The notes under the pieces were generated by a model. It was not told the origin of the DNA. It saw nothing but the letters and a program-made list of their open reading frames with translations, and searched no databases. From NCBI RefSeq assembly GCF_000484535.1, contig NC_022600.1, positions 186,001 through 250,000 of the forward strand: DNA of 64,000 bases, written 5' to 3'. Position numbers and translations under genes: made by a program. Positions 47,718-62,253 of the stretch are shown here, one piece after another; within the stretch, counting starts at the first letter, position 1, and each line of letters opens with the position of its first letter. The stretch is from Gloeobacter kilaueensis JS1 (lineage in GTDB: Bacteria; Cyanobacteriota; Cyanobacteriia; Gloeobacterales; Gloeobacteraceae).

Positions 47718-49175
47718 TCATGCTAAGCCCTCTTTTGATTTCTGCTGTGCGGCATACGCCTTGCCAGCCGACGTGAGCCGATATTTCTGCAAGCGGCTGT
47801 TTGGGCTATTGGGGATGGTCATTTCCACTAATCCCGTAGTCACTGCTCCCTGTTGATAGTTCTTACGAAAGTGCTTTTCGTCTTTTAGCCCGAGTACAGC
47901 CATGATTTCCCTCCGACTCATTTCGCCATTCAATACGGACAAGAGCCTAGCTACTTCGGGGGTGACTTCGGGGGTGACTTCGGGGGTGACTTCGGGGGTG
48001 ACTTCCCCGATGGGGTTCTTGGATGTTAACCGCTGAATGACCACACGGAATTGGTTGGCGGCCACATCGTCAATCAGTTCAATTGCAGGCCAGTCATGCA
48101 AGGCGCGGGGGATGCCCGTACCCAGCCCGCGATAAGGCAGAATGTGTACAGCGTGTCCGGTGAGCGTCGGGTTGCGGCGGTTAGCGGCTCCATGGCGAAT
48201 AGCTTCAGTATTCAAGCTGTCGGGCAAGTGGCCGGGACTGATGATTTCCACCCGGTCGGCAAATATCATCAAGCGGATCGAGGCGCTGGTGAAATAGTCA
48301 CGGTGGATCAGCGCGTTGACCAGCAACTCTTCCAGCGCCTGTTCCGGGATTTCCAACTGCCCCGATGTGTTGAAGCCCCGCTTGCCCTGCACATGATGCA
48401 GGTTGCGGCGGATGAAGGCAAAGCTGCGCCGGTATTGCTCCAGCAGCGTGCCATCGATGTCTTCGTTGTCCAAGTAGTGCGTATCGTGCAGCACTGTGCC
48501 GGGGAAGGCCACGGCCTTCACTTCAAAAGCCGGACGGTAGCGTTGCGGGTGCTTGCCGAACAGCAGCAACCCGGCCAGGTTCAGCTCATGCCCGTTGCCC
48601 AGACTGAGGTTTTGCAGCACCTGCTCCAGCGTCTGCCTGGTGAATTCCGTGCTTTGGCCAGAGCGGCTGCTCAGATAGGTTTGGAATACCCTCTCGTCAA
48701 TGTCCGCCGCCGAACTGCCGGCAACCGGTACCACGTCGGCATAAACCAGCCCGGCACGCTGGAATATACGTTGAAGTTCCTCATGGGCCGTCACGTGCCG
48801 TTTGTCAGACCCGTTCTTCACCCACACCCGCCCTTGCAAGTCCATGTAGGGTTTGTTTAGGCCATCAGGTACCGTCATCACAATTACGATGCCATGCTTC
48901 GCCGTCTGTATGTTCTCGGTCAGCGGATGTACGGACGGGCGTACATTCTGACTAGCGGCGTTGCTGAGCAACTGGTTTATTCGCCGCACCGCTGCGGCAT
49001 CTAATCCTGTGATGCTGCCGTCATCGGCCACGCCGATAAACACCTGACCGCCGCCACTGTTAGCAAGGGCAGCGAGTTCGGCGGCTACACTGTCAGCATT
49101 GGTAATATCGCGCTTAAATTGCTGGCAGCTATCTTCGCCGCGCACTAGCACTTGCTGCAGTTCTGCCTCATTCAT
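47718..49175 (-). CDS. AlbA_2/Schlafen-type ATP-binding regulator with a winged-helix C-terminus
   Basis: The 485-residue protein has an AlbA_2 domain (about 10-120: CQQFKRDITNADSVAAELAA, ALANSGGGQVFIGVADDGSI), a GHKL-type ATPase-like segment (EELLVNALIHRDYFTSASIR, FADRVEIISPGHLPDSL), four VTPE repeats and a C-terminal winged helix (ARLLSVLNGEMSRREIMAVL). Such proteins are predicted transcriptional regulators or defence-associated factors and are often horizontally spread. It lies next to an IS remnant on the opposite strand and looks like island cargo. Confidence 0.8.
   Translation of the reverse strand: MNEAELQQVLVRGEDSCQQFKRDITNADSVAAELAALANSGGGQVFIGVADDGSITGLDAAAVRRINQLLSNAASQNVRPSVHPLTENIQTAKHGIVIVMTVPDGLNKPYMDLQGRVWVKNGSDKRHVTAHEELQRIFQRAGLVYADVVPVAGSSAADIDERVFQTYLSSRSGQSTEFTRQTLEQVLQNLSLGNGHELNLAGLLLFGKHPQRYRPAFEVKAVAFPGTVLHDTHYLDNEDIDGTLLEQYRRSFAFIRRNLHHVQGKRGFNTSGQLEIPEQALEELLVNALIHRDYFTSASIRLMIFADRVEIISPGHLPDSLNTEAIRHGAANRRNPTLTGHAVHILPYRGLGTGIPRALHDWPAIELIDDVAANQFRVVIQRLTSKNPIGEVTPEVTPEVTPEVTPEVARLLSVLNGEMSRREIMAVLGLKDEKHFRKNYQQGAVTTGLVEMTIPNSPNSRLQKYRLTSAGKAYAAQQKSKEGLA
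47955..48002 (-). repeat. Four perfect 12-bp tandem repeats encoding VTPE
   Basis: The unit TTCGGGGGTGAC is repeated four times without change and encodes a Val-Thr-Pro-Glu linker between the ATPase-like and winged-helix parts. The frame is preserved by any whole-unit change in copy number. Confidence 0.92.
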
Positions 49176-49979: not shown

Positions 49980-50873
49980 TCAGGGATTACAGACCGGGCA
50001 ATGCATCGGTTGAGCAAATTCCTGGCCTCCCGGAAAGTGTTCTTCCTGCTCGAAACCACAGCCTTTACAGCCATAAATGTCAGTTAAAAGCAGCCCGGTC
50101 GGCGTGAGGCACCACTCGCAGGGCAGCCCCTGCCGCCTGCGGACAACCCTAAAGCCCGGCAGACCGCAGCGCGGGCAGCAGGAGCGGACCTTTGCGATCA
50201 GATCGTGGGTGGCCTGGGCAATGTTGGCCATGCGCGTCGGATTGTAGAGTGCCCGCATGTCTGTCTCCAGGCGCACCTTGATCCTGCGCTGCAGTTTCTG
50301 CTGGAGTACTGTCAGCAGATGCTCTGTCTCGACGATGCCCTTGACGCACTCAGATTCACCGAAGACGACCAGGCCATGCTCTGGGAAACCCGCTTTGTTC
50401 GCAAACAGCAGCGCTTCTTTGAGGCTTGTGATTTCCTGCTGGGCGTAGTTGGTCTGCGTCGTCAAAGACTCGCCCACGATCTCGATGCTGTTCTCGGCGT
50501 CCAATAGCAGCACCATCTCGAGATTGGCCGCGAGAAACGGGCACTCCGGATGGGGGCCAAAGCTCCCCTCGCTCGCCACCGCCAGCGTTGCGCCCGTGAC
50601 TGTCAGGGCTTTTTGCGCTTTGAGGCGGGCGGTCTCCCGCTGCGAGCCGGGGCGGTTGACTTCGCGGGTGAACGTTCCCAGCCAATCGGTGTCGAAGTCC
50701 GGAGGCACGACGACGTCGATGCCCAGCTCTTGCTTGAGGATTGGCTGGATGACCTGCTCCTTGCGATGCATCGTGGCGAGCACCGCCAGCCTGTCTTTGA
50801 AGAGGTTCTGATCGTGGCCCATCGCTGCGCGCCGCAAGTCGTCCAGAACCCAGTTTATGTCACAAGATTGCAT
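49980..50873 (-). CDS. DUF6671-like protein with a C-terminal zinc-ribbon region
   Basis: The 297-residue product contains LAVLATMHRKEQVIQPILKQ, DTDWLGTFTREVNRPGSQRE and VASEGSFGPHPECPFLAANL, a pattern I associate with DUF6671, and a Cys-rich tail with CPRCGLPGF, CEWC, GCKGCGFEQ and CPVC that should bind zinc. Function is unknown. The gene overlaps the NERD gene by 14 bp; a later ATG at 50822 (MGHDQNLFKDRL) is a possible alternative start and would remove the overlap. Confidence 0.7.
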   Translation of the reverse strand: MQSCDINWVLDDLRRAAMGHDQNLFKDRLAVLATMHRKEQVIQPILKQELGIDVVVPPDFDTDWLGTFTREVNRPGSQRETARLKAQKALTVTGATLAVASEGSFGPHPECPFLAANLEMVLLLDAENSIEIVGESLTTQTNYAQQEITSLKEALLFANKAGFPEHGLVVFGESECVKGIVETEHLLTVLQQKLQRRIKVRLETDMRALYNPTRMANIAQATHDLIAKVRSCCPRCGLPGFRVVRRRQGLPCEWCLTPTGLLLTDIYGCKGCGFEQEEHFPGGQEFAQPMHCPVCNP

Positions 50874-51987
50874 CGGCCATGCGCGTTAACTGCGCTCTTG
50901 AAAGCGATCTGCCAGGTGGCCTGAACGTGTTGATCGCCTCGATCAGTTGCTGCTCGTGAAATACAGGCACAGCGGTGCTGTAGGCCAGAACATCGACGCC
51001 AGCGCCTTCGATCGCAAAGCGGGCCCGGTCGGGAAAGAGCACAATGCCCTTGATAAAAACCTCGAAGCCCTGTTTGGCAAAAAAGTTCTTGAGGGCCAGC
51101 ACCTGAGCGTCGCACTGCTGGAGTGGATTGTTGCCACGGCTGGATTTGATCGGATCGCCGGTGCTGGTGCGCCAGACATTGTTGAGATTGCCCTCGATCG
51201 TACCGGTGTAGCTTTTGCCCTCGATCACAAAGACGCCCCGGTCGCACAGCAGCACATTGTCCAGGCGCAGGATGTCGTTCTTGTAAGGAACGCTCACGCC
51301 GGTCAGTAGAATGCCCTCGACGGTGAGCTGGCTCACGAGCAACCTGCCAACCTGGGCATCGTAGGGATCGGGATTGCTCACCCGGTGCTCAAGGCGGACC
51401 TGTTCGCGGTTACGGTTGTCAGGCCGCCAGGCCGGATTTTTAATCGCGACGGTTTTCCACTGCCAGCGATATGCCTCTTGAAACCATTCAAACGGACCTC
51501 CCAGAAGACAGACCGCCAGCACTAGCCCCACCACAGTCAGGTAGAGGTAGGCGACGGGCAGCGGCGGGACGGCGGTTTTCAAAAACAAACGAATCCCCCC
51601 AGCGGTGGCAGCGATCAAGGCTGCTCCACCCAGATTTAAGAGATACAACCGCAAAAAGAGCTTCGAGGGCTGCAGCAGCGTCGCCCCTACACCGAGGAGA
51701 AATACCCCCCCTGCCAGCGGAGCAAGCGGCAACCTGAAGCCGGAGGGAAAGGTATAAAAACCATTCAAATTCAGCAGCAAAGCGCTGATGCGCGTACCGC
51801 CCTGCCAGGCCAGTGCCCCCCACTCCTTGAGGTAGACCGCCTGAAACCACCCGGCAATCCAGAGCAACAATCCGCCGTACAGCGACAGGATGGCTGCCAG
51901 AAAGACCAGTGCCATCGAAAAGCGGGCCAGAGCAACCAGCGACTGCCCCAGAACGTCGCGCAATCGCCCAACGAAGCGCCTCAGCAT
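50860..51987 (-). CDS. Membrane protein with a C-terminal NERD (nuclease-related) domain
   Basis: The 375-residue protein has four to five membrane helices in its first half (about 22-45, 85-103, 118-132, 145-165) and a NERD domain from about 205: VGRLLVSQLTVEGILLTGVS, DNVLLCDRGVFVIEGKSYTG and ALKNFFAKQGFEVFIKGIVL. NERD domains have a restriction-endonuclease-like fold and the Asp, Glu and Lys in DNVLL and VIEGKS are at the expected places. It is 120 bp downstream of the beta-propeller gene and could be the tail of the same transcript. Confidence 0.8.
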   Translation of the reverse strand: MLRRFVGRLRDVLGQSLVALARFSMALVFLAAILSLYGGLLLWIAGWFQAVYLKEWGALAWQGGTRISALLLNLNGFYTFPSGFRLPLAPLAGGVFLLGVGATLLQPSKLFLRLYLLNLGGAALIAATAGGIRLFLKTAVPPLPVAYLYLTVVGLVLAVCLLGGPFEWFQEAYRWQWKTVAIKNPAWRPDNRNREQVRLEHRVSNPDPYDAQVGRLLVSQLTVEGILLTGVSVPYKNDILRLDNVLLCDRGVFVIEGKSYTGTIEGNLNNVWRTSTGDPIKSSRGNNPLQQCDAQVLALKNFFAKQGFEVFIKGIVLFPDRARFAIEGAGVDVLAYSTAVPVFHEQQLIEAINTFRPPGRSLSRAQLTRMADAIL

Positions 51988-52107: not shown

Positions 52108-53754
52108 TCAATATTTGATTGGGCGCGGGGAGACACAGGGATTGGAGAGGCGCGCCACAGGCCATCCCCCGCGAAAAATATCCGTATCGGAGAACACGTA
52201 GGTGGCCCGGCGGCCCCCCAGGCATTGCCAGGATCTTTGAGTGAGGTAGCGCACCCGGTCCACCTGCCAGCCTGCTGCCACCGCAACGACATCGAGCACC
52301 GCCTCCAGGGAGGTGCGGTTGTGTAGCCGCAGCTGCAGATGCACTTCTCGCCTTCCAGCCGCCGCTGGGCGGATGATCCGTCCTGGCTCGATGCGCTCGA
52401 AGTTGCCCTGGTAAAGAAGAATTTCTGAACGGTTGCCGATATTGTCGCGCAGCCTCGCGGTGCTCACGGCCTCGTCCAGATGGCCTTCGCGGTTGATGGT
52501 TCGATAAAATGTCTCGATCGTCCTGTCGATAGCCTGAGCGGTGCTCAGGCGATTGGCCGGGGGCCGGGCGGGCCGCCTGGAGGATAGAGCCTGCTGCTGC
52601 AAGGCTGGCAGGCTTTGGGAAAGGGGCTGCTGCGGCCACCAGGCTACCGTCACCACCACTACCAGCGCTACTGCCGTCACAAGCCAGTTCAATGTGTCGG
52701 CGGTCGGCAGCGCGAGCTGCCAGTGCGTCCTGCGCGCGTACCAGGGCAGTGGGCGCGTTGCTGGGACAGACATTTCCGGAGCGTTTGGGGGCAGTACTGA
52801 GCTGCGCTCGGACGTATTGCTGCTGCTGGTTTTGCTGATGACCGTCTTTTGTCTGGCTGCCGGTGTCGGGCCAGGTACGAGTTCTTTGGCAGGGGTGGGC
52901 GTCGAGGATGCGGGGACAGTTGGAGTGGCTGCCGGTGCAGGGGCCGCCTCGATCGTCGGAGCCGGTGCCTGGGGGAGCCGCGCTTGCAGACGGGTATAGC
53001 CTTTGATTCTGCCGCACCAGATCTGGCCTGTGCGGTCTTCGAGCAGACACTGCACGCCCTCTGCCAGTTCCGGCTCCTCCAGCTTCTGCCAGCTCGCGCC
53101 CTTGGAGCGATATAAACCGGCCTCGGTTCCGCAAAGCACGTCACCCGCCCGGTCAGCCAGGAGAGCCTGAATGCGCTCTTTGATCGCCGTTTTTTCCCAG
53201 TGGCCACCGCTGCTGGGCCGGCGCAGCAGACCACCGCTGGTACCGCACCAGAGATCGTCCTCAGAATCCAGGAGCAGGCAGGTAACGTTGATATCAAGAT
53301 AAATACTTTCGTAGCGATGACCGTCGAAGCTGGCCAGCCCCGCCTCGCTGCCGCACCAGAGCAACAGTTCCTGACCCGGCTCCTGCCGCAGAGCGTTTAT
53401 CGGCAGATCGATGGTTGCCTCGATTGTGCGCCACGCGCCTGCCGTGCCTCGTACCAGACCGCGATTGGTGCCGCACCAGAGATCGTCCCTTTGCTGGAGC
53501 AGGCAGCGCACATCCTGGCCCGCCAGCTTTTCTACCGCCTGCCAGCTACCATTGTTCCATTGCAAAAGACCGATGCTTGTCCCGCACAAGGGTTTGGTGG
53601 ATTGTTCGCTGGCAAGCAGGCAGTGAATGTTATCGGCGGGAAAATCGTCTTCGCGCACGAATGCCGAGTCTTGCCAGTAAAAAAGCCCGTTGTCTGTCCC
53701 GCACCAGATCTGGCCTGTGTGGTCTTCGAGCAGGCACTGCAGGTTTTTGATCAT
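52108..53754 (-). CDS. Membrane-anchored seven-bladed beta-propeller (Reg_prop) protein
   Basis: The first 260 of 548 residues contain seven repeats around a (W/L)CG motif (IWCGTDNGL, LCGTSIGL, LWCGTNRGL, LWCGSEAGL, LWCGTSGGL, LCGTEAGL, IWCGRIKG), as in the propellers of hybrid two-component sensors. A Pro/Ala/Thr-rich linker, a membrane helix (LNWLVTAVALVVVVTVAWWP) and a C-terminal domain of about 140 residues that may be NTF2-like follow. No signal peptide precedes the propeller, so it is probably cytoplasmic with the C-terminus outside. Its ATG overlaps the stop of the upstream coiled-coil gene by 4 bp. Confidence 0.8.
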   Translation of the reverse strand: MIKNLQCLLEDHTGQIWCGTDNGLFYWQDSAFVREDDFPADNIHCLLASEQSTKPLCGTSIGLLQWNNGSWQAVEKLAGQDVRCLLQQRDDLWCGTNRGLVRGTAGAWRTIEATIDLPINALRQEPGQELLLWCGSEAGLASFDGHRYESIYLDINVTCLLLDSEDDLWCGTSGGLLRRPSSGGHWEKTAIKERIQALLADRAGDVLCGTEAGLYRSKGASWQKLEEPELAEGVQCLLEDRTGQIWCGRIKGYTRLQARLPQAPAPTIEAAPAPAATPTVPASSTPTPAKELVPGPTPAARQKTVISKTSSSNTSERSSVLPPNAPEMSVPATRPLPWYARRTHWQLALPTADTLNWLVTAVALVVVVTVAWWPQQPLSQSLPALQQQALSSRRPARPPANRLSTAQAIDRTIETFYRTINREGHLDEAVSTARLRDNIGNRSEILLYQGNFERIEPGRIIRPAAAGRREVHLQLRLHNRTSLEAVLDVVAVAAGWQVDRVRYLTQRSWQCLGGRRATYVFSDTDIFRGGWPVARLSNPCVSPRPIKY

Positions 53755-54620
53755 GTTGCTACGAGCTTCCCTTTCTGGTGGATCTTCAACCGTCCCCCCG
53801 CTCCATCGCTGACAAACAGCGCTGGCCGGACCAGACTCGTAATGTAGGAACCACTCCCTTCGATCTCAAAGGCTGCCTCCACCATCTCAGTTTCGACCGA
53901 GAAGCTGGGATCAAGATAAATCTCGTACAGCCCCTCTTCTGGAACGGCATAGAAAATACCATTCGTATTTGCATAAAGAAAAACCTGTTCGCGAACCCGG
54001 TACACTTCGATATCCAGGGACATCTCGATGAGCGAAGGCCAGCGCTTTTGTATTTCTTCTTTGATGACGGTATTATTTCCTAGTGCGAGAGTTCGATTAT
54101 AAAATCCCACCCGTTCGCGGGTGGCGGGTTTGATCGGCGCGCTATCCTGGCGGCTCACAAAAGCGGGAGGCGCAAAGCTGCTGGAGGGGCGCTGGGGAGG
54201 CAGGGCCGTCGGTGGTGGGTAACTTGTCTGGGTTGGAGAATTGCGCAGGCTTTCTACCTGGGCCTGCACCTGCTGCAAACCCTGCTGGAGTGTCCGGAGC
54301 TGCTGATTGAGCCCGTCGATGTCCAGCTCCTGCCTTTTGGTGACGCCTAGAGCCTGTTGCCCCTGGGCAGCTAGCCTTTCACCCTGCTTGTTGAGCCGCT
54401 CGCTGGAGCGTTTGAGCGCCTCCAGGCGTACGAGGGCGACGACCAGAGCAATGCCCAGGAGCGCTTCCACCCCAAACGCGATGTAGATGAGCCAGTCTGG
54501 AGCGCGGCTGAGGGCCGTCTCGGGGGCTGTTGGTTTGGCAAGCACTGCCTGGATGGCAGCGCTCATCAGTAGCAGGCTCCCGGCGACAACGAGGACTTTG
54601 CCGTTGCTGGGTTTAATCAT
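53751..54620 (-). CDS. Two-helix membrane coiled-coil protein with a C-terminal beta domain
   Basis: The 289-residue product has two membrane helices (about 9-28 and 43-65), a coiled coil (about 68-128, LNQQLRTLQQGLQQVQAQVE), a Pro-rich linker and a C-terminal domain (about 165-289) with beta-type sequence such as REQVFLYANTNGIFYAVPEE and GLYEIYLDPSFSVETEMVEA. It overlaps both neighbours by 4 bp, with its GGGAGGAGG ribosome-binding site formed by the last codons of the actin-like gene. I recognise no family; context suggests a membrane platform for the NTPases. Confidence 0.7.
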   Translation of the reverse strand: MIKPSNGKVLVVAGSLLLMSAAIQAVLAKPTAPETALSRAPDWLIYIAFGVEALLGIALVVALVRLEALKRSSERLNKQGERLAAQGQQALGVTKRQELDIDGLNQQLRTLQQGLQQVQAQVESLRNSPTQTSYPPPTALPPQRPSSSFAPPAFVSRQDSAPIKPATRERVGFYNRTLALGNNTVIKEEIQKRWPSLIEMSLDIEVYRVREQVFLYANTNGIFYAVPEEGLYEIYLDPSFSVETEMVEAAFEIEGSGSYITSLVRPALFVSDGAGGRLKIHQKGKLVAT

Positions 54621-57600
54621 CTTCCTCCTCCCAGCCAGCGCTCCGCTTCGACTTTTAACAGTGCCTTCAATGCCGTGATAAACAGCGGTTTGACGACGAT
54701 CGAGTGAGGGTCTTGCTCCTTGTATTCGTTCAGTTCGTCCTGCACAATGTCGCGAATCGACTGGGCAACCTCGTTGAAATTCACCGGGCTTGCCAGGCTT
54801 TCTTTGGTGGCTGCATAGGCGTTATAGGCCGCGACAAAGCTGCGCAGATGGGTAAAGTCCTCGGGAACGCTCAAGCCGGCAGCGAGAACTTCGGGCTTGA
54901 GATTGCTGCTCCAACCGACGATGGTGCCGGAGCCATCGATGCTATCTTCACCCGCCAGTTCGATAATCGCCTCCTCTTCTTTTTTGAGGGGGCGCTCGGA
55001 CTTTAATAGCCCGTAGGCCACTTCCGCCTTGGGCTGGGAGCTGATGCGCAGATCCAGCCTGCCCTGGCCGCCAATCTCAGCTGCTGTGCGCAGCACACTG
55101 GTAAAAAGTTCGGTCTGCTTTGTGTTTTTGTTAAAAGCTCTTCCCAAACTCAACCAGTTGAAGATCCGCGCCCCATTGCCACCTACGCAAAGATAGGGCA
55201 ACTCGTCGCTCGTCCATTTTTCTTCCTGTCGCAGGCGTCTCAATAACAATCCTGCGTAAAAAACCAGCCCTGACAGTCCCAAAGCAAGCAGATGAATAAA
55301 TTGATACAGCGGTTCGCCAGGGCGCGAGGACGCAAGCAAGATCGGTAGCTTCTTAAACAGATCCTCCCGCTGTGAGGCGCGGAAGAGGGAGACTGCCTCG
55401 GCATAGAAACTGCGATCTTTGTTGACATTGGAAAGTTGCTGCGTCCACTCGGAACCAAAAGCACCTAATGTCGCCGGGTAATGGCGCAGTAGATCAAGAA
55501 AGATGCTTTCTCCAGCGAACTTGATCGAAGATTGCTGCAGAAGCACACTATTGTTCCAGATCGAGATATCGGAAGTCCCACCGCCGATATCGATGCAAAC
55601 GGTGCGCACCAGTGAAACGCGCTCTCCGTGTTGAAAGTAGCGTGCGGCTGCCTCGCTCTCGGTCTGGTAGCGCAGGTCGGCAACAGGCACGTTCAACCGC
55701 TCCGTTATCTCCTCCCAGATATTCCTCAAGGAGGCTTCTGAGAAGCTGGAGAACGCACTCGGATAAGAGATAGACCAGCGGATAGCCGAGGCTCCCCGCT
55801 CAACGGCGTAGGCCGCGCTCTGAGCGGCAAGCTGGATGAGAAAGCCACCGATCAATGCCTGATCTTCTGACCATTTGAAGCCGGAAGCAATGCCGTTGCG
55901 CTTGAGATCGTTGAGCATGGCCAGTGCCGGCTTGACGTAGCGAATGTTGCCCTGCCAGAAGGGCCAGTTCTGCGAAGCTCCGCTGTCGGGCCGAAACAGG
56001 GTCGGGAAGGGCCGCTCCGGCAAGAACGGCGGCAAGAAAAAATTCGTGAGTCGATCGCGCTCCGAGTCACCGATAGGAGTGATCTGGAGAAGCTGGTCCG
56101 ACCAGGGAAGTGGACTCGGTTCATCGCCGGGGGCGGCTTGAACGTAGACGTGGGTGGCGGAGGTGCCAAAATCGACGCCCAGCGACCAGATGCTGCCGTT
56201 CGATTCTTTAAATTCCAGCTCCTGCAGCAGCAGGCAGCCTACTTCCAGTTCCTCGCGCCGCTCCGGCAAATAGGCGCTGCAGACAAAAGCGGTGGGCGGT
56301 GCCTCCAGGCGCGTCACCTCCCGACGGTCGCTCTCGCCGCGCTGGAAACTGCGGCAGTTTGCTTCTAGATCCAGCGGCACACCGGCAATACGGGGCCGGG
56401 CAACAAAGATGTCCTGGGGGCGGCGCAGGGCTGCGTCGTAGTAAGTGTAGTACAGATGCCAGTGTTCCGAGCGAAAGTGGGGCCAGATCTCCAGCACCGG
56501 AAAGTTGGAGCGGCGGTCGATCGAGTTGGCGTCGTAGGTATGGCGCACCGGAAAATCTCGCGCCTGCCCATCGGGACCGGCCAGCGGCAGGCGCAACTCG
56601 ACGGTGATCGCGTTGTTTTTTTCTGGAAAGAAACTGAGGCGCTTCTCCAGTTCAGGAGCGCTCAGATAATCGAGCAGTTCGCTCGCGATAGGCAGAATCG
56701 GGATGACCGGACGCTGCTCGTAGGTGAGGTTGCGCTGCCCCTCGACTTCGCGGACGCCTCGAAATGGCTGGTTTGAGCTAATCAGTAACAGCCGTTCGCT
56801 AAAGAGCATCGCTGCGGTGCGCCACTCAGCGTTGCGCAGCACCTCCTGGCCCAACTGGCGCAGTTTGTCTTTGTCGCCCCGGCGCACCTCCTGCAGGGCA
56901 GCAAAGTCGATGCTCGCTAAAGTTTCACGGCCAAAGAGGGGAACTTCGCTGGGTTTGACGCGCCAGTACTCGGCGATGGTCGGATCGACGATGAGCAGGC
57001 CAATCGGCGCTTTGAGGCCCGGAGTGGTCACCAGTCGGGCGGCGGACTCCTCCAGGCTCACCTCCCGCGCCCGCAAGGGTTTATCAAGATAGGTATAAAA
57101 TCCTGTGTTCAGGCCCAGAAAACGATTGCTGAACTCGTGGTTGACCGGCGGCGAATTCAGGCTTTCGGCAAATTTTGAAAGTTGACCGCCCAGCCGATTG
57201 AGCAAATCCCCGGCCTCTCGACCACTGATCGCCGGGTGGGCGTTCAAGTTGGTCACCAAAATCACCAGCCAGTGGGCCAGGGCCGCTTTCTCGGTGGCGG
57301 TCAAAAAGGGCACCGGATCTTGCAGCCCTGCTTCGGTGGCCCAACTGACCCGACTGTCGAAGCGGCCCCGGCAATCGGCGGCAGTGCAGACGAGGGTAGT
57401 CGGCGAGGTGATGCCCACTGCCCTGCCCCTGTAAGTAAAGATATACAGGTTCGTCCAGGGGGTATCTTCTGAGAGCTGTCTGCGCGGAAGCAGGCGGGTG
57501 GCCGCCTGCACGAACGCCGGTGCCCGGCCCAGGTTGGCCGCACTCGCCGGCAGTTCGAGCGCCTCGGCCTTAAAATCGAGGCCGCGCACTTCCCGCAGAG

Positions 57601-57904
57601 CAAGCAGGGCCAAAAGCCCCCGCCACTCGCCCTGGACCTGTTTGTGCAGCGGGTGTCTGCTATCCAGCAACGCCAGCTCAAACAGCAGTGGCCTGGCCCA
57701 CAGATCCGGAATCGAGTCGATCGAATGCTCACCGGTAAGAAGGCCAGGTACCTTGATGCTGGTGGCCACCTGGCCCAGCAGACCGTCGGTGGTGGCTGAC
57801 CATTGGGCCGGAGGCACCGCCGGTACTCTGCCGGTGGCGCTGTCCAGTTCCGGTAGCAGGGGAACCGCGTCCCCAGGAGTGGTGTTGTTGGCTTGCATCG
57901 TCAT
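54617..57904 (-). CDS. Actin/Hsp70-like ATPase fused to a large N-terminal region
   Basis: The 1095-residue protein ends in an actin/Hsp70-fold ATPase: phosphate-1 motif SLGVDFGTSATHVYVQ (about 573-588), phosphate-2 motif VCIDIGGGTSDISIW (about 772) and adenosine motif CVGGNGARIFNWLS (about 909). The first 560 residues match nothing I know; they contain mixed alpha/beta sequence (IGLLIVDPTIAEYWRVKPSE). No membrane helix or signal peptide is apparent. It is encoded 9 bp after the tubulin-like gene and overlaps the coiled-coil gene by 4 bp, so all three are likely made together. A filament-forming or chaperone-type ATPase are both possible. Confidence 0.82.
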   Translation of the reverse strand: MTMQANNTTPGDAVPLLPELDSATGRVPAVPPAQWSATTDGLLGQVATSIKVPGLLTGEHSIDSIPDLWARPLLFELALLDSRHPLHKQVQGEWRGLLALLALREVRGLDFKAEALELPASAANLGRAPAFVQAATRLLPRRQLSEDTPWTNLYIFTYRGRAVGITSPTTLVCTAADCRGRFDSRVSWATEAGLQDPVPFLTATEKAALAHWLVILVTNLNAHPAISGREAGDLLNRLGGQLSKFAESLNSPPVNHEFSNRFLGLNTGFYTYLDKPLRAREVSLEESAARLVTTPGLKAPIGLLIVDPTIAEYWRVKPSEVPLFGRETLASIDFAALQEVRRGDKDKLRQLGQEVLRNAEWRTAAMLFSERLLLISSNQPFRGVREVEGQRNLTYEQRPVIPILPIASELLDYLSAPELEKRLSFFPEKNNAITVELRLPLAGPDGQARDFPVRHTYDANSIDRRSNFPVLEIWPHFRSEHWHLYYTYYDAALRRPQDIFVARPRIAGVPLDLEANCRSFQRGESDRREVTRLEAPPTAFVCSAYLPERREELEVGCLLLQELEFKESNGSIWSLGVDFGTSATHVYVQAAPGDEPSPLPWSDQLLQITPIGDSERDRLTNFFLPPFLPERPFPTLFRPDSGASQNWPFWQGNIRYVKPALAMLNDLKRNGIASGFKWSEDQALIGGFLIQLAAQSAAYAVERGASAIRWSISYPSAFSSFSEASLRNIWEEITERLNVPVADLRYQTESEAAARYFQHGERVSLVRTVCIDIGGGTSDISIWNNSVLLQQSSIKFAGESIFLDLLRHYPATLGAFGSEWTQQLSNVNKDRSFYAEAVSLFRASQREDLFKKLPILLASSRPGEPLYQFIHLLALGLSGLVFYAGLLLRRLRQEEKWTSDELPYLCVGGNGARIFNWLSLGRAFNKNTKQTELFTSVLRTAAEIGGQGRLDLRISSQPKAEVAYGLLKSERPLKKEEEAIIELAGEDSIDGSGTIVGWSSNLKPEVLAAGLSVPEDFTHLRSFVAAYNAYAATKESLASPVNFNEVAQSIRDIVQDELNEYKEQDPHSIVVKPLFITALKALLKVEAERWLGGGR

Positions 57905-57913
57905 TTCTTTTTG

Positions 57914-59323
57914 CTAGCTGGGACGGCATTCGTAGTACAGAGCGTGCAAAAAGCGGCTAAGACCGCTAAGCGAATCGCTGCCCGGTCGCGGGCGGTTGCG
58001 CTGATCGAGGGCACCTGAGAGGCTGTCGAGGGTCGGGTTGGGGGCATTGAGACCCGGATAGACCGTAAAGTTGCCGGTGTTGAGCAGGTCGATGCGCAGG
58101 CCGCCTTCGAGCTTCTGCAGATCCCTCAGCCAGACCAGCAGGAGATCGCAGTAGGAGCGCACCAGCTTCGCTGTCCGTTCGTCTTCTTGAGAAAGGCCCC
58201 TGGCAAAAAATTCTTTGCTGTACCAGCGCGTCCAGCGCAACTCTCCGTTGCCTAAGATCTGCCGCTCGAGCTTTGGATAAAAGTAGCTCGAATAGGCATA
58301 AGCAAAGCGCAACAGGTTGGCAAGTTTTGCGCGCAACTGCTCACCGTCCGGGATGCTGTTCCACGACAGGCCGGTACCGGGAGCACGGGCGGTTATATAC
58401 GTCTGGCCATTCGCTTCTGCTGCATTACTAAAAAAGTGCAGGGCTGCCGCTGCCGCGTACAGCTCTAAAAAGTGGGGAGGATTGCGCTGCTCTTTGGAGC
58501 CTAATCGGTTGAAGCCCACCGACGGCTGATCGTCGCTGCCCAGCAGGTAGAGCGCATCGTAGACAGGTTGAGTCGTATCGCCCAGTCGCGCCTGGTAGTA
58601 GTTGAGGGCAGCCTGGGAGCGCAGCAAAAATTCGTCCGCCCGCGCCTGCAATCGCGTCGGATCTTCGCCCGGCGGAAAAGAAAAGTACGGCAAAAGCAGC
58701 CCGCAGCCGAGGCGGTACTGCCGCCGCCGGTCCGCCAGAGCATCCGCCAGTAGCCGCGCCAGGGTCGGCAACCCAGCCGCCCCAGTGCCACCAAAGATCG
58801 ATCCGACCAGAAAGATCCGCGCCTGGTTGTCGTTGCGCAGCCGCTCGCCAAAAAACTCGCGCCAGGGCGGCTCGCCTAATAGATCGACCGCATCCGCCAG
58901 CACCGCTACGCCGATCGAAGGCCGGCCCAAAAACCCCTGATCGAGGGGAGCGGTCTTTTCTTGCTCACTGTAGAGCACATCCATCAACCGGGCCGCTGCC
59001 GGATGCTGCTGGCTCAGGTATTCATACTGAAACAGGTCGCGCAAGACAGGCCGCTGCTCGCTACTGAAGGGCGACCAGACGCGGGGGGTGGCAGGGCGAA
59101 TCTGGGTCTGCAACAACTGGGCAGTGCTGGATTTAAGCGGCGCGGCGGCGGCCAGGTACGCTTCGAGGGTTTGCAGCGTGCGCTCAAGACTGCCGTTGGC
59201 CGTGTCCGGATCGACCAGCAAAACATTGAGCGGCTGATCGAGGGGAATGGCTGCCGCCAGATGGATGAGCGCTTCGACGCACTTGGCTCCTGTGCCGCCG
59301 ATACCGACAATGTAATAGCTCAA
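57914..59323 (-). CDS. Tubulin/FtsZ-like GTPase (Tubulin_2-like)
   Basis: The 469-residue protein opens with MSYYIVGIGGTGAKCVEALI, a T1-type Gly-rich loop, then LNVLLVDPDTANGS, and has the tubulin signature-like loop FLVGSIFGGTGAAGLPTLAR (about 173-192). This matches FtsZ-like proteins outside cell division, which are known from various bacteria and archaea in putative membrane-remodelling clusters. The C-terminal 200 residues are helical and lack the FtsZ tail. The TTG start at 59323 has a strong AAGGAGG site 6 bp upstream. GTP binding is likely; polymerisation is not shown. Confidence 0.78.
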   Translation of the reverse strand: MSYYIVGIGGTGAKCVEALIHLAAAIPLDQPLNVLLVDPDTANGSLERTLQTLEAYLAAAAPLKSSTAQLLQTQIRPATPRVWSPFSSEQRPVLRDLFQYEYLSQQHPAAARLMDVLYSEQEKTAPLDQGFLGRPSIGVAVLADAVDLLGEPPWREFFGERLRNDNQARIFLVGSIFGGTGAAGLPTLARLLADALADRRRQYRLGCGLLLPYFSFPPGEDPTRLQARADEFLLRSQAALNYYQARLGDTTQPVYDALYLLGSDDQPSVGFNRLGSKEQRNPPHFLELYAAAAALHFFSNAAEANGQTYITARAPGTGLSWNSIPDGEQLRAKLANLLRFAYAYSSYFYPKLERQILGNGELRWTRWYSKEFFARGLSQEDERTAKLVRSYCDLLLVWLRDLQKLEGGLRIDLLNTGNFTVYPGLNAPNPTLDSLSGALDQRNRPRPGSDSLSGLSRFLHALYYECRPS

Positions 59324-59333
59324 ATCGCCCTCC

Positions 59334-59789
59334 TTACTTGCGCATCAGTTGCCAGCCCGGCGGTATGCAGGCCAGAGTTGCCGGTGGACCAAACAGTGTG
59401 GGTGCATAATAGACCAGCAAAAAATTCAGAAAGTACAACCCATAAGCGCCCCACTGATTTTGCGCGGCGGGCAACAAAAATACCGCAGGCACGATCCCAG
59501 CCGCGAGAGCCAGCAGCGCCAGGATGTACCAGAGGGCGACGATGCCGCCGGTGACAATCTTCCAGACAAACTCGCCCATCAGATACCAGAACAGGGCGAG
59601 GCTGGAACCCACGAACACTCCGACCAGCCCCCAGGTGCGAAAATCCTTCAGCCAGCCTGCGAGAGTAACGCGGCCCGAAGGTCGGATCCAGGCGGACGAT
59701 TCGAGAAGCGACGGCCAGAGCAGGGCGGTGAGAAACACGGCCACAGCCGCACCGCCGATGATCCAGATCAAGCCCGAAACCTTGTTCAC
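59334..59789 (-). CDS. Four-helix membrane protein
   Basis: From the GTG at 59789 the product has 151 residues and four hydrophobic segments (about 4-22, 51-69, 75-95 and 103-135), with little sequence outside the membrane. The frame is open back to 59918, but that part overlaps the lipoprotein gene and looks unlike protein. It is 7 bp after the vWA-like lipoprotein gene and 10 bp before the tubulin-like gene, so it is an obvious candidate membrane anchor of this system. No family recognised. Confidence 0.7.
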   Translation of the reverse strand: MNKVSGLIWIIGGAAVAVFLTALLWPSLLESSAWIRPSGRVTLAGWLKDFRTWGLVGVFVGSSLALFWYLMGEFVWKIVTGGIVALWYILALLALAAGIVPAVFLLPAAQNQWGAYGLYFLNFLLVYYAPTLFGPPATLACIPPGWQLMRK

Positions 59790-59796
59790 CTGCCCT

Positions 59797-61182
59797 TTAC
59801 CTCCGGATGTAAAAGTACATTGAGAGATCGCTGCCGGCATTTTCGTTGAGCGCCACCGCCGCCAGACTGCGCAGAAATTGTTTGAGATGGAGGGTGCGGC
59901 TGGGTTCGTTGACGGCATCGTCGGTGTTCCAGCTATCCCACCAGCGCGGAAAAGTGTTCAGTTCTGGATGGGCAGCAAGGGCAAAAAAATAGTCAGCGCT
60001 CTGCTCAGAATTTAAAGCTTTTGTCTCAACCTGCACCGCCACTCCGAGGGGCCGGCTGGGTGGGTTGTCCTTCGCAGCGGTCTCACAGCTGCCCGCATCG
60101 GTGCGCACCTGGACCACTTCCGCCGGTAGTGGCCTCGGTTTGGTACCGGTGGGCACGGCGAGAACCTGAGCGCGCCAGTCGCCTCCCACCTCGGCTGCCA
60201 GCGCGTAAGGCAGCGGTTCCACCTGCCCACAGGCTTTGAAGGTGGCAGTTGGTGGTTCTCCCTGCAGCCGAAACCAGTAGGTGCGCTCGTCTTCGAGCAA
60301 TCCCATGTCGATGAGACCGCCGTCGCCAGCTTCCACCGCCGGTGCTTCGCTAAAAAAATTGACTCGCGAGCGAAAGGGCCGGGCCGTAAAGATCAAAAAC
60401 TGGGCCTGCTTTTGAAGGTTGCTGTCGGCCTGGTTGATCCCATCGAAGTAGTGGGCCACATCGACGTAGCTCCCGAGTACCAGGGCGTAGACGGGCCGGT
60501 TGGCACGAATGGACTTTTTGGCTTGCTCGGTGTCGAGATCGAAGACCACCCCGTCGAAGGCACTTTCGACGCCGACGATGCCCACGACCCAGCCTTTTTG
60601 GAGATAGCGGTTCTTCAAAAGACGAATCAGGCTCGTGACGTCGGTGTCGCGCTGGAACAAGTCCGTAACGATCACCCCCAGTTGACCTGATCTGGACGGC
60701 AGGTAGCGGTCGTTGAGCACCTGCTCAAGCTCAGTGTATAGACCAACACCTTTATAAAAATCCTGGTTTTTCCCGGCCAGGACGTTCAATCGCCGCTCGG
60801 AGGGAACCGCCGCAACACTGGTTCCGAACTTAAAGCTCTGTCTTTGGACCTGGGGAAACTGCTGCAGGCCGTCTTCGAGGGCGCGCAGCAACTGCTGATA
60901 GCGGGTAGTGGCCCCGGTGGCATTCACAAAGCCGCGCATCGAATCGGTGCCATCCACAAATAAACGGGCCTGCAGATTCTGGGAGGCTTCTGCCCTTTGA
61001 AAACTGGCTAAAGCCTGACAGGCACTGCCGCCGATTAAGCCCTGGGCACAGGGGGCTGGGGGCGGCGGCGGGCTGGAGCAGGCGGCAAGCAGAGTAAGCA
61101 GGGCAAGCGGCACAATTGGAATTTTCAAGTGGACAGGTGCGAGCGCAGCAAAGTAGTCCAGGTATAACTTTCGCCGCTGCAT
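59797..61182 (-). CDS. Lipoprotein with a von Willebrand A-like domain
   Basis: From the ATG at 61182 the product has 461 residues. The signal peptide ends in a lipobox (LALLTLLAACSS, Cys about 35). A vWA-like domain follows: LFVDGTDSMRGFV (about 74-86) resembles the first MIDAS strand, and QLGVIVTDLFQRDTDVTSLI the later strand with its metal-site Asp. The MIDAS is not canonical (DGTDS instead of DxSxS). The rest has beta-rich sequence of unknown type. It should face the periplasm, anchored to a membrane. It heads the tightly packed gene series with the tubulin- and actin-like NTPases. Confidence 0.75.
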   Translation of the reverse strand: MQRRKLYLDYFAALAPVHLKIPIVPLALLTLLAACSSPPPPPAPCAQGLIGGSACQALASFQRAEASQNLQARLFVDGTDSMRGFVNATGATTRYQQLLRALEDGLQQFPQVQRQSFKFGTSVAAVPSERRLNVLAGKNQDFYKGVGLYTELEQVLNDRYLPSRSGQLGVIVTDLFQRDTDVTSLIRLLKNRYLQKGWVVGIVGVESAFDGVVFDLDTEQAKKSIRANRPVYALVLGSYVDVAHYFDGINQADSNLQKQAQFLIFTARPFRSRVNFFSEAPAVEAGDGGLIDMGLLEDERTYWFRLQGEPPTATFKACGQVEPLPYALAAEVGGDWRAQVLAVPTGTKPRPLPAEVVQVRTDAGSCETAAKDNPPSRPLGVAVQVETKALNSEQSADYFFALAAHPELNTFPRWWDSWNTDDAVNEPSRTLHLKQFLRSLAAVALNENAGSDLSMYFYIRR

Positions 61183-61311
61183 CGCTGACAGAATTTTAGA
61201 AAGGATTAACAAAAATATGTATCTCGTCGCCGCTCTGGCAGGTGTGCCATCTCGCTTTCAAGCCTGCCGGAAGTCTTCAAGCAGAGCTTTGGAGACGAGA
61301 AACATGCAATT

Positions 61312-62253
61312 TTATGGCAAAGAGCTGTCCAGCAGTTTAGGGTCAAAATAATCCAGCGCATCGATGAGCATCTCCTGCCCGGTCACAGTCAAAAAAGCAG
61401 CCCCCCGAAAAAGCTCCCCCTGCCCGTCGCGCAGTTCGATGCGCACCATCGCTCCGCCGATCTCCCCCGGCACCACCCGCAGCGTCCCAAGGTTGCCGAC
61501 TTTGAGCAGTCGATCAAAGTCGGCATCGCTATGCAGCCGGGCGCGCATTCTGGGGCCGAACCACAATTGCAGCCGGGCAGTATCCCGGTCTGGATCATCG
61601 AGCATCTGGTACAACTCGACGATGCGTTTGCGGGCAGCTTGCAGCGCGTCGGTGCTGAGGGGCGGCAGCTTCAGCAGGCGGACGGTGTTGAACAAACGGT
61701 CGCTGCTGGTGGGCAGGCCCGTATCGGTGCGGTAGGAACGCCGATCCGACTGGTGCATACTTGCCGAATCGAAGCCGTCGATCTGCCACTGGTTGAGTAC
61801 GGGAATCAGGCGCAGGCGCAGGATGCGGGGGAGGGTGCTGCTGGCAGGGCGAGTCTCGACAGCATAATTAAAATCCTCGCCCGGCAAATAGCGCCCGTTG
61901 AGCAGTTTTCCCAGGCCGCCGGGAGCGATGGGAGCGCTGCGGCCTGCGACAAATTCGTTCTCGATTTCGTCTCGAAATTCGGCACTGAGCAGTCCCGCCG
62001 CCCAGCGGCCTTGATCGAGCTGCAGGAGAAACTGTTTGACCAGCGCATACTTTGGATCGCCAGCTTGAGCAGCGCCAGGTCGAGGCGAAGACGCCCGTCT
62101 GGGGGTGCGGCGGGTTGTAATGGGGAGGGCCGTGCGGCGAGTGGCAGCCGGGCGCGACGGCGCGTAGTCAGGCGCGATCGGAGCCGCAATCTGTGCCTGG
62201 CCAGGCTGGACGAGCGCCACAATCCACAACAGCACCAGCAGCCATCTTCCCAT
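61312..62253 (-). CDS. Exported protein of unknown function
   Basis: The 313-residue product has a Sec signal peptide (LLVLLWIVALVQPGQAQ) and a Pro/Arg-rich low-complexity stretch (about 25-65), then a folded part with YALVKQFLLQLDQGRWAAGL and a C-terminal beta-type end GQGELFRGAAFLTVTGQEML. The layout (linker followed by a domain tracking 'remaining' and 'total' helices) gives no family. It is 130 bp upstream of the lipoprotein gene on the same strand, so it may be the first gene of the cytoskeletal-like operon. Confidence 0.65.
   Translation of the reverse strand: MGRWLLVLLWIVALVQPGQAQIAAPIAPDYAPSRPAATRRTALPITTRRTPRRASSPRPGAAQAGDPKYALVKQFLLQLDQGRWAAGLLSAEFRDEIENEFVAGRSAPIAPGGLGKLLNGRYLPGEDFNYAVETRPASSTLPRILRLRLIPVLNQWQIDGFDSASMHQSDRRSYRTDTGLPTSSDRLFNTVRLLKLPPLSTDALQAARKRIVELYQMLDDPDRDTARLQLWFGPRMRARLHSDADFDRLLKVGNLGTLRVVPGEIGGAMVRIELRDGQGELFRGAAFLTVTGQEMLIDALDYFDPKLLDSSLP

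Follow-up and report, generated by a model that had tools for sequence, protein, structure and literature searches.

A conserved gene module joining tubulin-type and actin/Hsp70-type NTPases in Gloeobacter kilaueensis and other diderm bacteria, with a possible role at the cell envelope

Bacterial tubulin-type and actin-type NTPases normally work in different machines, and a locus of Gloeobacter kilaueensis JS1 that appears to encode one of each, next to a lipoprotein and membrane proteins, raises the question of whether the two belong to a single system and what such a system might do. The window (the whole stretch of DNA that was analysed, 64,000 nucleotides) comprises positions 186001-250000 of a single 4,724,791-bp contig. 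Six minus-strand open reading frames (ORFs), here called A to F, run from 61212 down to 52108 and are either spaced by 10 bp or less (7 bp for A-B, counted from an inferred GTG start of B, 10 bp for B-C and 9 bp for C-D) or overlap by 4 bp (D-E and E-F). B as listed overlaps A, the conserved start of its family being an internal GTG at 59789. The ORF coordinates confirm the tight packing of six genes described in the initial annotation; the interval quoted there, 53751-61212, holds for A to E but leaves out the propeller gene F (52108-53754), which its text had counted. The features of the locus are as follows:

61312-62253, minus strand: probable accessory gene upstream of A, exported 313-aa protein, no Pfam match
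59797-61212 (likely start 61182), minus strand: gene A, vWA-like lipoprotein, assigned from motifs
about 61078-61080, minus strand: lipobox Cys codon of A (lipobox LLAAC)
about 60937-60954, minus strand: DGTDSM of A, a MIDAS-like motif
about 60658-60666, minus strand: TDL of A (VTDL in the window protein)
59334-59789, minus strand: gene B, small inner-membrane protein with three to four TM helices predicted from hydropathy
57914-59323, minus strand: gene C, tubulin-superfamily GTPase-like protein of 469 aa (Tubulin_2 profile, AlphaFold2 model, PDB fold matches)
about 59279-59302, minus strand: T1-like loop of C
about 58772-58795, minus strand: T4-like loop of C
54617-57904, minus strand: gene D, 1095-aa ATPase of the actin/Hsp70 superfamily whose N-terminal region is large (AlphaFold2 model, PDB folds, invariant residues)
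55025-56197, minus strand: predicted ATPase domain of D, residues about 570-960, placed from motifs and secondary structure
53751-54620, minus strand: gene E, signal/TM segment, coiled coil and predicted cytosolic C-terminal adaptor domain (two hydrophobic segments)
about 53757-54128, minus strand: C-terminal domain of E, no Pfam entry
52108-53754, minus strand: gene F, Reg_prop-type propeller with seven WCGT-type repeats, a TM helix and a C-terminal domain (Pfam Reg_prop, E 1.2e-14)
50860-51987, minus strand: probable accessory gene, membrane protein with a NERD domain (E 3.5e-15)

The Pfam family Tubulin_2 was matched by all 23 C homologues (best E 3.4e-10), the match of the window protein itself being weak (E 2.4e-6, just over the curated cut-off). 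An AlphaFold2 model of C (pLDDT 82.8, pTM 0.89) retrieved almost only tubulins from the PDB, with E down to 1.3e-4, over ~270-300 columns and at TM-scores of ~0.3, which are low because the common part is the GTPase core; no counterpart of the T7 loop or the polymerising C-terminal domain was identified in these matches. Sequence-profile matches of C to dynein stalk constructs in the PDB were set aside as a helical artefact. Profile, model and fold search agree on a GTPase-domain fold with T1- and T4-type glycine loops, which C shares with FtsZ, tubulin and TubZ, whereas its similarity to these proteins is concentrated around the T4 loop, the rest having diverged, and it has no recognised FtsZ/tubulin C-terminal domain. 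As modelled, C is a tubulin-type GTPase core that might possibly polymerise. The tubulin fold proposed earlier for this product is thereby borne out, and the motifs quoted for it (GIGGTGAK and SIFGGTGAAG) are present.

A tubulin-like GTPase beside a vWA protein brings to mind the FtsZl1/vWA operons for which Makarova and Koonin predicted a role in membrane remodelling in 2010 (PMC2875224), and the initial annotation had taken the locus for a different version of that system. Tubulin_2 homology, a vWA-like protein and membrane proteins are indeed common to both, and hhalign aligned C with FtsZl1 at E 1.5e-7, in the T4 region only. The G. kilaueensis JS1 genome, however, carries a bona fide FtsZl1 elsewhere, at about 610-614 kb (L015:6697-10107), with 1136 aa against the 469 of C and a Tubulin_2 match (E about 4.5e-101 to 4e-100) that covers all 356 positions of the profile, as opposed to positions 155-221 for C. 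FtsZl1 moreover has a long coiled coil and a helical C-terminal domain, the former lacking in C, which belongs to a separate family of 470-500 aa; the window operon shows none of the P-loop GTPase, OmpA-domain and kinase genes associated with FtsZl1, and the text consulted names no protein of type D as a partner. We thus rejected C as an FtsZl1 and, with it, the earlier placement of the locus, and we regard a merely divergent form of that system as very improbable. Among the neighbours of the genuine FtsZl1 that were scanned, no published vWA, GTPase or OmpA partner was recognised, and a zinc-ribbon/PBP-like gene lies directly downstream of it (L015:5533-6684).

For D, the AlphaFold2 model (pLDDT 83.8, pTM 0.71) matched the folds of DnaK, BiP, Mbl, MreB and BeeR (E 5e-9 to 2e-7), with only Hsp70/MreB-type proteins among the PDB fold matches listed. 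The phosphate-1, phosphate-2 and adenosine motifs were all invariant over 22 D homologues (D578, D772, G774, G776, D779 and G909), which supports a two-lobed nucleotide-binding fold, and the sequences DFGTSAT, DIGGGTSD and GGNGARIF are found as quoted in the initial annotation, whose call of an actin/Hsp70 fold agrees with the model. None of the 22 members matched the Pfam family of SrfB-type ATPases, an assignment that we discarded. The model shows D as an Hsp70/actin ATPase domain behind an N-terminal region of ~500 residues, which had no match in Pfam or in a PDB sequence search. D thus resembles MreB/FtsA and Hsp70 in ATPase fold and nucleotide motifs, but differs from them in this N-terminal region, in an extra C-terminal segment and in a fusion to the E domain in a subset of Selenomonadales (see below). 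Some relatives depart from the window arrangement: several cyanobacteria carry a second D-like gene beside their E genes (L020:14883-17108, L069:13443-15641 and L074:4949-7879), whose match to the D profile starts at about position 330; at L078:6542-11491, D is split into parts of 947 and 107 aa, separated by a 430-aa ORF, perhaps through a transposon insertion; and at L082:4910-8879 three ORFs (603, 321 and 404 aa) lie between C and D, the D frame being longer (1353 aa).

These features also fit a chaperone or switch that forms no filaments, in which the Hsp70-type ATPase activity of D and a GTPase switch in C would serve the assembly or export of envelope proteins, A for instance. The best fold matches of D include DnaK and BiP beside the MreB types, its large extra N-terminal region could bind substrate, and C has no evident tubulin C-terminal domain, as its fold-match scores indicate; on the other hand, the core showed neither a J-domain nor a GrpE partner, and the scores of D against MreB, Mbl and BeeR, a filament protein, are close to those against Hsp70. 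We consider such a chaperone improbable, if well worth keeping in mind.

The remaining core genes encode a predicted lipoprotein and predicted membrane proteins. The lipobox Cys of A was invariant in all 20 homologues, and 19 of these have the MIDAS-type pattern D-x-[ST]-x-S-M, nearly all with the downstream TDL. Since no Pfam match was obtained for the 20 members and no PDB sequence match for A, its vWA assignment is motif-based; the C-terminal part faintly resembles FNIII-type cytokine receptors in the PDB sequence search (E 0.17-0.46), a likeness that we set aside. By the sorting rule of E. coli, which is not established for the bacteria studied here, a lipoprotein without Asp at +2 is directed to the outer membrane; the signal of A lacks this Asp, so A is probably an outer-membrane lipoprotein. 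B homologues occupy the same place at 20 loci, and hydrophobic segments in B and E support the membrane partners of the initial annotation, as the invariant lipobox Cys supports its lipoprotein arm.

E homologues are present in 1-4 copies at most loci, often two to four, and E-domain proteins carry the domain in tandem and differ at the N-terminus, where they may have a zinc ribbon, a WD40 or Reg_prop propeller, or a lipoprotein part plus TM, so that, judging from their sequences, they look like a set of interchangeable adaptors. The propeller gene F adjoins the core only in Gloeobacterales; it had been counted as part of the module, and we treat it instead as a lineage-specific partner, the conserved core being A-B-C-D-E. 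Other flanking genes are probably accessory as well: the NERD gene has a homologue after F in two other Gloeobacter-lineage genomes, and in L009 and L010 a homologue of the exported 313-aa protein precedes A. By eye, the part of F that follows its TM helix (within 52108-53754) resembles this 313-aa protein (61312-62253), both possibly being NTF2-like domains. Further along, a DUF6671 protein (49980-50873, E 2.3e-64) follows the NERD gene with a 14-bp overlap, and 47718-49175 encodes, again by eye, a Schlafen/AlbA_2-like ATP-binding protein that carries a tandem VTPE repeat close to the C-terminus.

The core, or most of it, was found in cyanobacteria, Negativicutes, Ignavibacteria and Bacteroidota, in a sample that includes draft genomes and mechanically called ORFs without curated annotation. 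The order A-B-C-D-E is identical across Gloeobacterales (gene E at L013, missed by tblastn, was recovered by profile) and is kept in other cyanobacteria, barring contig ends, missed genes or an A on the opposite strand, while Bacteroidota keep A-C-D, and nearly all of their loci have an ORF about as long as B at the position of B. The neighbourhood survey thus upholds the linkage in related genomes anticipated earlier, from Gloeobacterales to distant phyla; taken with the Tubulin_2 matches of all C homologues and the fold matches of C and D, this cross-phylum gene order makes the operon more than a chance grouping. A to D were carried together by 35 loci, and their tree distances correlated at r 0.91-0.96 (label-shuffled maximum 0.29), a mirror-tree correlation that includes shared species history; the agreement of the four trees implies that the genes travel together. 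D was detected in 27 of 386 cyanobacterial genomes, in 54 of 189 genomes of the order of a Selenomonadaceae genome and in 11 of 396 of the phylum of a Bacteroidales genome. All lineages with the module are diderm, a range that may be incomplete, as the genome-wide scan relied on two short peptide patterns.

Five cyanobacterial plasmids also carry D, some of these copies near parA, and no copy was found in phage records; in Picosynechococcus strains the module is plasmid-borne. A pair of tubulin- and actin-type NTPases near parA could be read as a plasmid- or DNA-segregation system of the TubZ or ParM type; the copies in complete genomes, however, lie mostly on a chromosome-sized contig, and most core products are either membrane proteins or the lipoprotein, which leaves segregation extremely improbable.

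One group of Selenomonadales has a different arrangement, with D lying apart from A, B and C. Here D measures 1235-1292 aa because the C-terminal domain of E is fused to its end, as found in all four cases checked (L142, L146, L147 and L148; E 1e-11 to 1e-15), where A and B-C are on contigs other than that of D. The fusion suggests, on sequence grounds, that the E domain contacts D. Among unlinked Selenomonadales genomes, C was present in 6/6 and A in 5/6, on other contigs; that the genes are kept although unlinked speaks for a shared function rather than for a simple mobile cassette. At six loci of these genomes (L150-L155), B-C comes after a YrbL-like kinase gene (PF10707) throughout and after an LCP protein gene (PF03816) in five, the sixth contig ending before the LCP position. 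Both matches are over the Pfam cut-off, and this one Selenomonadales subset is the only place where B-C was found linked to LCP. LCP proteins (LytR-CpsA-Psr family) attach glycopolymers to the cell wall. In two of these Selenomonadales genomes, A adjoins by eye a membrane-bound phosphoethanolamine-transferase-like gene. The envelope association put forward in the initial annotation gains from the LCP gene beside B-C and from the restriction to diderm lineages.

The nearest published relatives appear, by analogy, to be the GAP1-N2 GTPase systems, which are nearer than FtsZl1, went unmentioned in the initial annotation and were described by Kaur et al. in 2020 as predicted conflict systems (PMC7159879). 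These are membrane-associated, about half include tubulin and vWA proteins, 14% include HSP70 and GrpE, and zinc ribbons and adaptor domains are also among their parts (PMC7159879). The A-E module could accordingly be an anti-phage or cell-suicide system of this kind, in which the NTPases would set a threshold, A- or E-type proteins would sense invasion, and variable E-domain proteins would act as effectors or sensors. Its patchy cyanobacterial range (27/386) and plasmid carriage would also be in keeping with an accessory system or one for conflict, the exchangeable N-termini of the E-domain copies recall adaptor modules, and an Ignavibacteria locus (L035:1891-15023) reads trypsin-like, A-B-C-D-E, HSP70 (E 1.5e-83), second E, FGE-sulfatase. 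This last gene makes a weak conflict-type partner, as FGE matches number 18 across the same genome. The DO-GTPase, GAP1 and FNIII proteins that define GAP1-N2 systems were found neither in any core protein nor in the distant-locus flank proteins scanned, nor among the 25 commonest of the 212 families in 100 cyanobacterial flank proteins. The core proteins had no PADLOC match, and a defence-island enrichment of the flanks was unconvincing, with PADLOC matches to 281 families against 210 in a control that was drawn from some of the same genomes, is inflated by reverse transcriptases and is compared by family totals only. No toxic effector was recognised in the core, and the scattered genes that Selenomonadales retain are unlike a mobile cassette. 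In addition, GTPase-centric systems are reported to be nearly absent from cyanobacteria, and the tubulin and HSP70 themes do not overlap in GAP1-N2 systems (PMC7159879), whereas the module always has one protein of each. The module may work like these systems, which need not make it a member of them, and a conflict function seems to us unlikely, though a serious contender.

The reading that we prefer, to which we give about even credence, is that A-B-C-D-E form an NTP-driven, envelope-spanning complex of diderms that organises cell-surface assembly. Direct support comes from the linkage and co-inheritance of the genes, the predicted folds of C and D, the lipobox and MIDAS-like motifs, the D-E fusion and the LCP and YrbL-like genes beside B-C; the topology, physical contacts, polymerisation and surface task of the module are inferred. 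The tubulin-type GTPase C and the actin/Hsp70-type ATPase D would act together in the cytosol as an assembly or a switch. The signal/TM segment and coiled coil of E would anchor it to the inner membrane, and its C-terminal domain, most likely touching D, would dock the assembly there, with B as a partner that completes the inner-membrane part. On the other side, the metal-dependent vWA-like domain of A, probably in the outer membrane, would bind a periplasmic or cell-wall ligand. GTP/ATP cycling in C and D would alter their assembly state or force, and the altered state might then position or activate surface assembly, for example the attachment of glycopolymers or the tethering of the outer membrane; any particular surface task of this kind is a far more doubtful proposition than the complex itself. 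That the two NTPases co-assemble, coupled across both membranes to the outer-membrane vWA lipoprotein, and so control surface assembly as an envelope machine of a distinct kind, we put forward tentatively, as a possibility that falls short of an even chance.

A literature search of open-licence papers, preprints excluded, returned no paper describing the A-E module. Nothing in the family libraries that were searched matches the large N-terminal region of D or at least three of the protein families (A, B and the E domain). The module is compact, holds one NTPase of each type, has stayed together in four diderm lineages and is tied to a lipoprotein; if our reading is true, it would offer a tractable new case of cytoskeleton-type NTPases working on the envelope.
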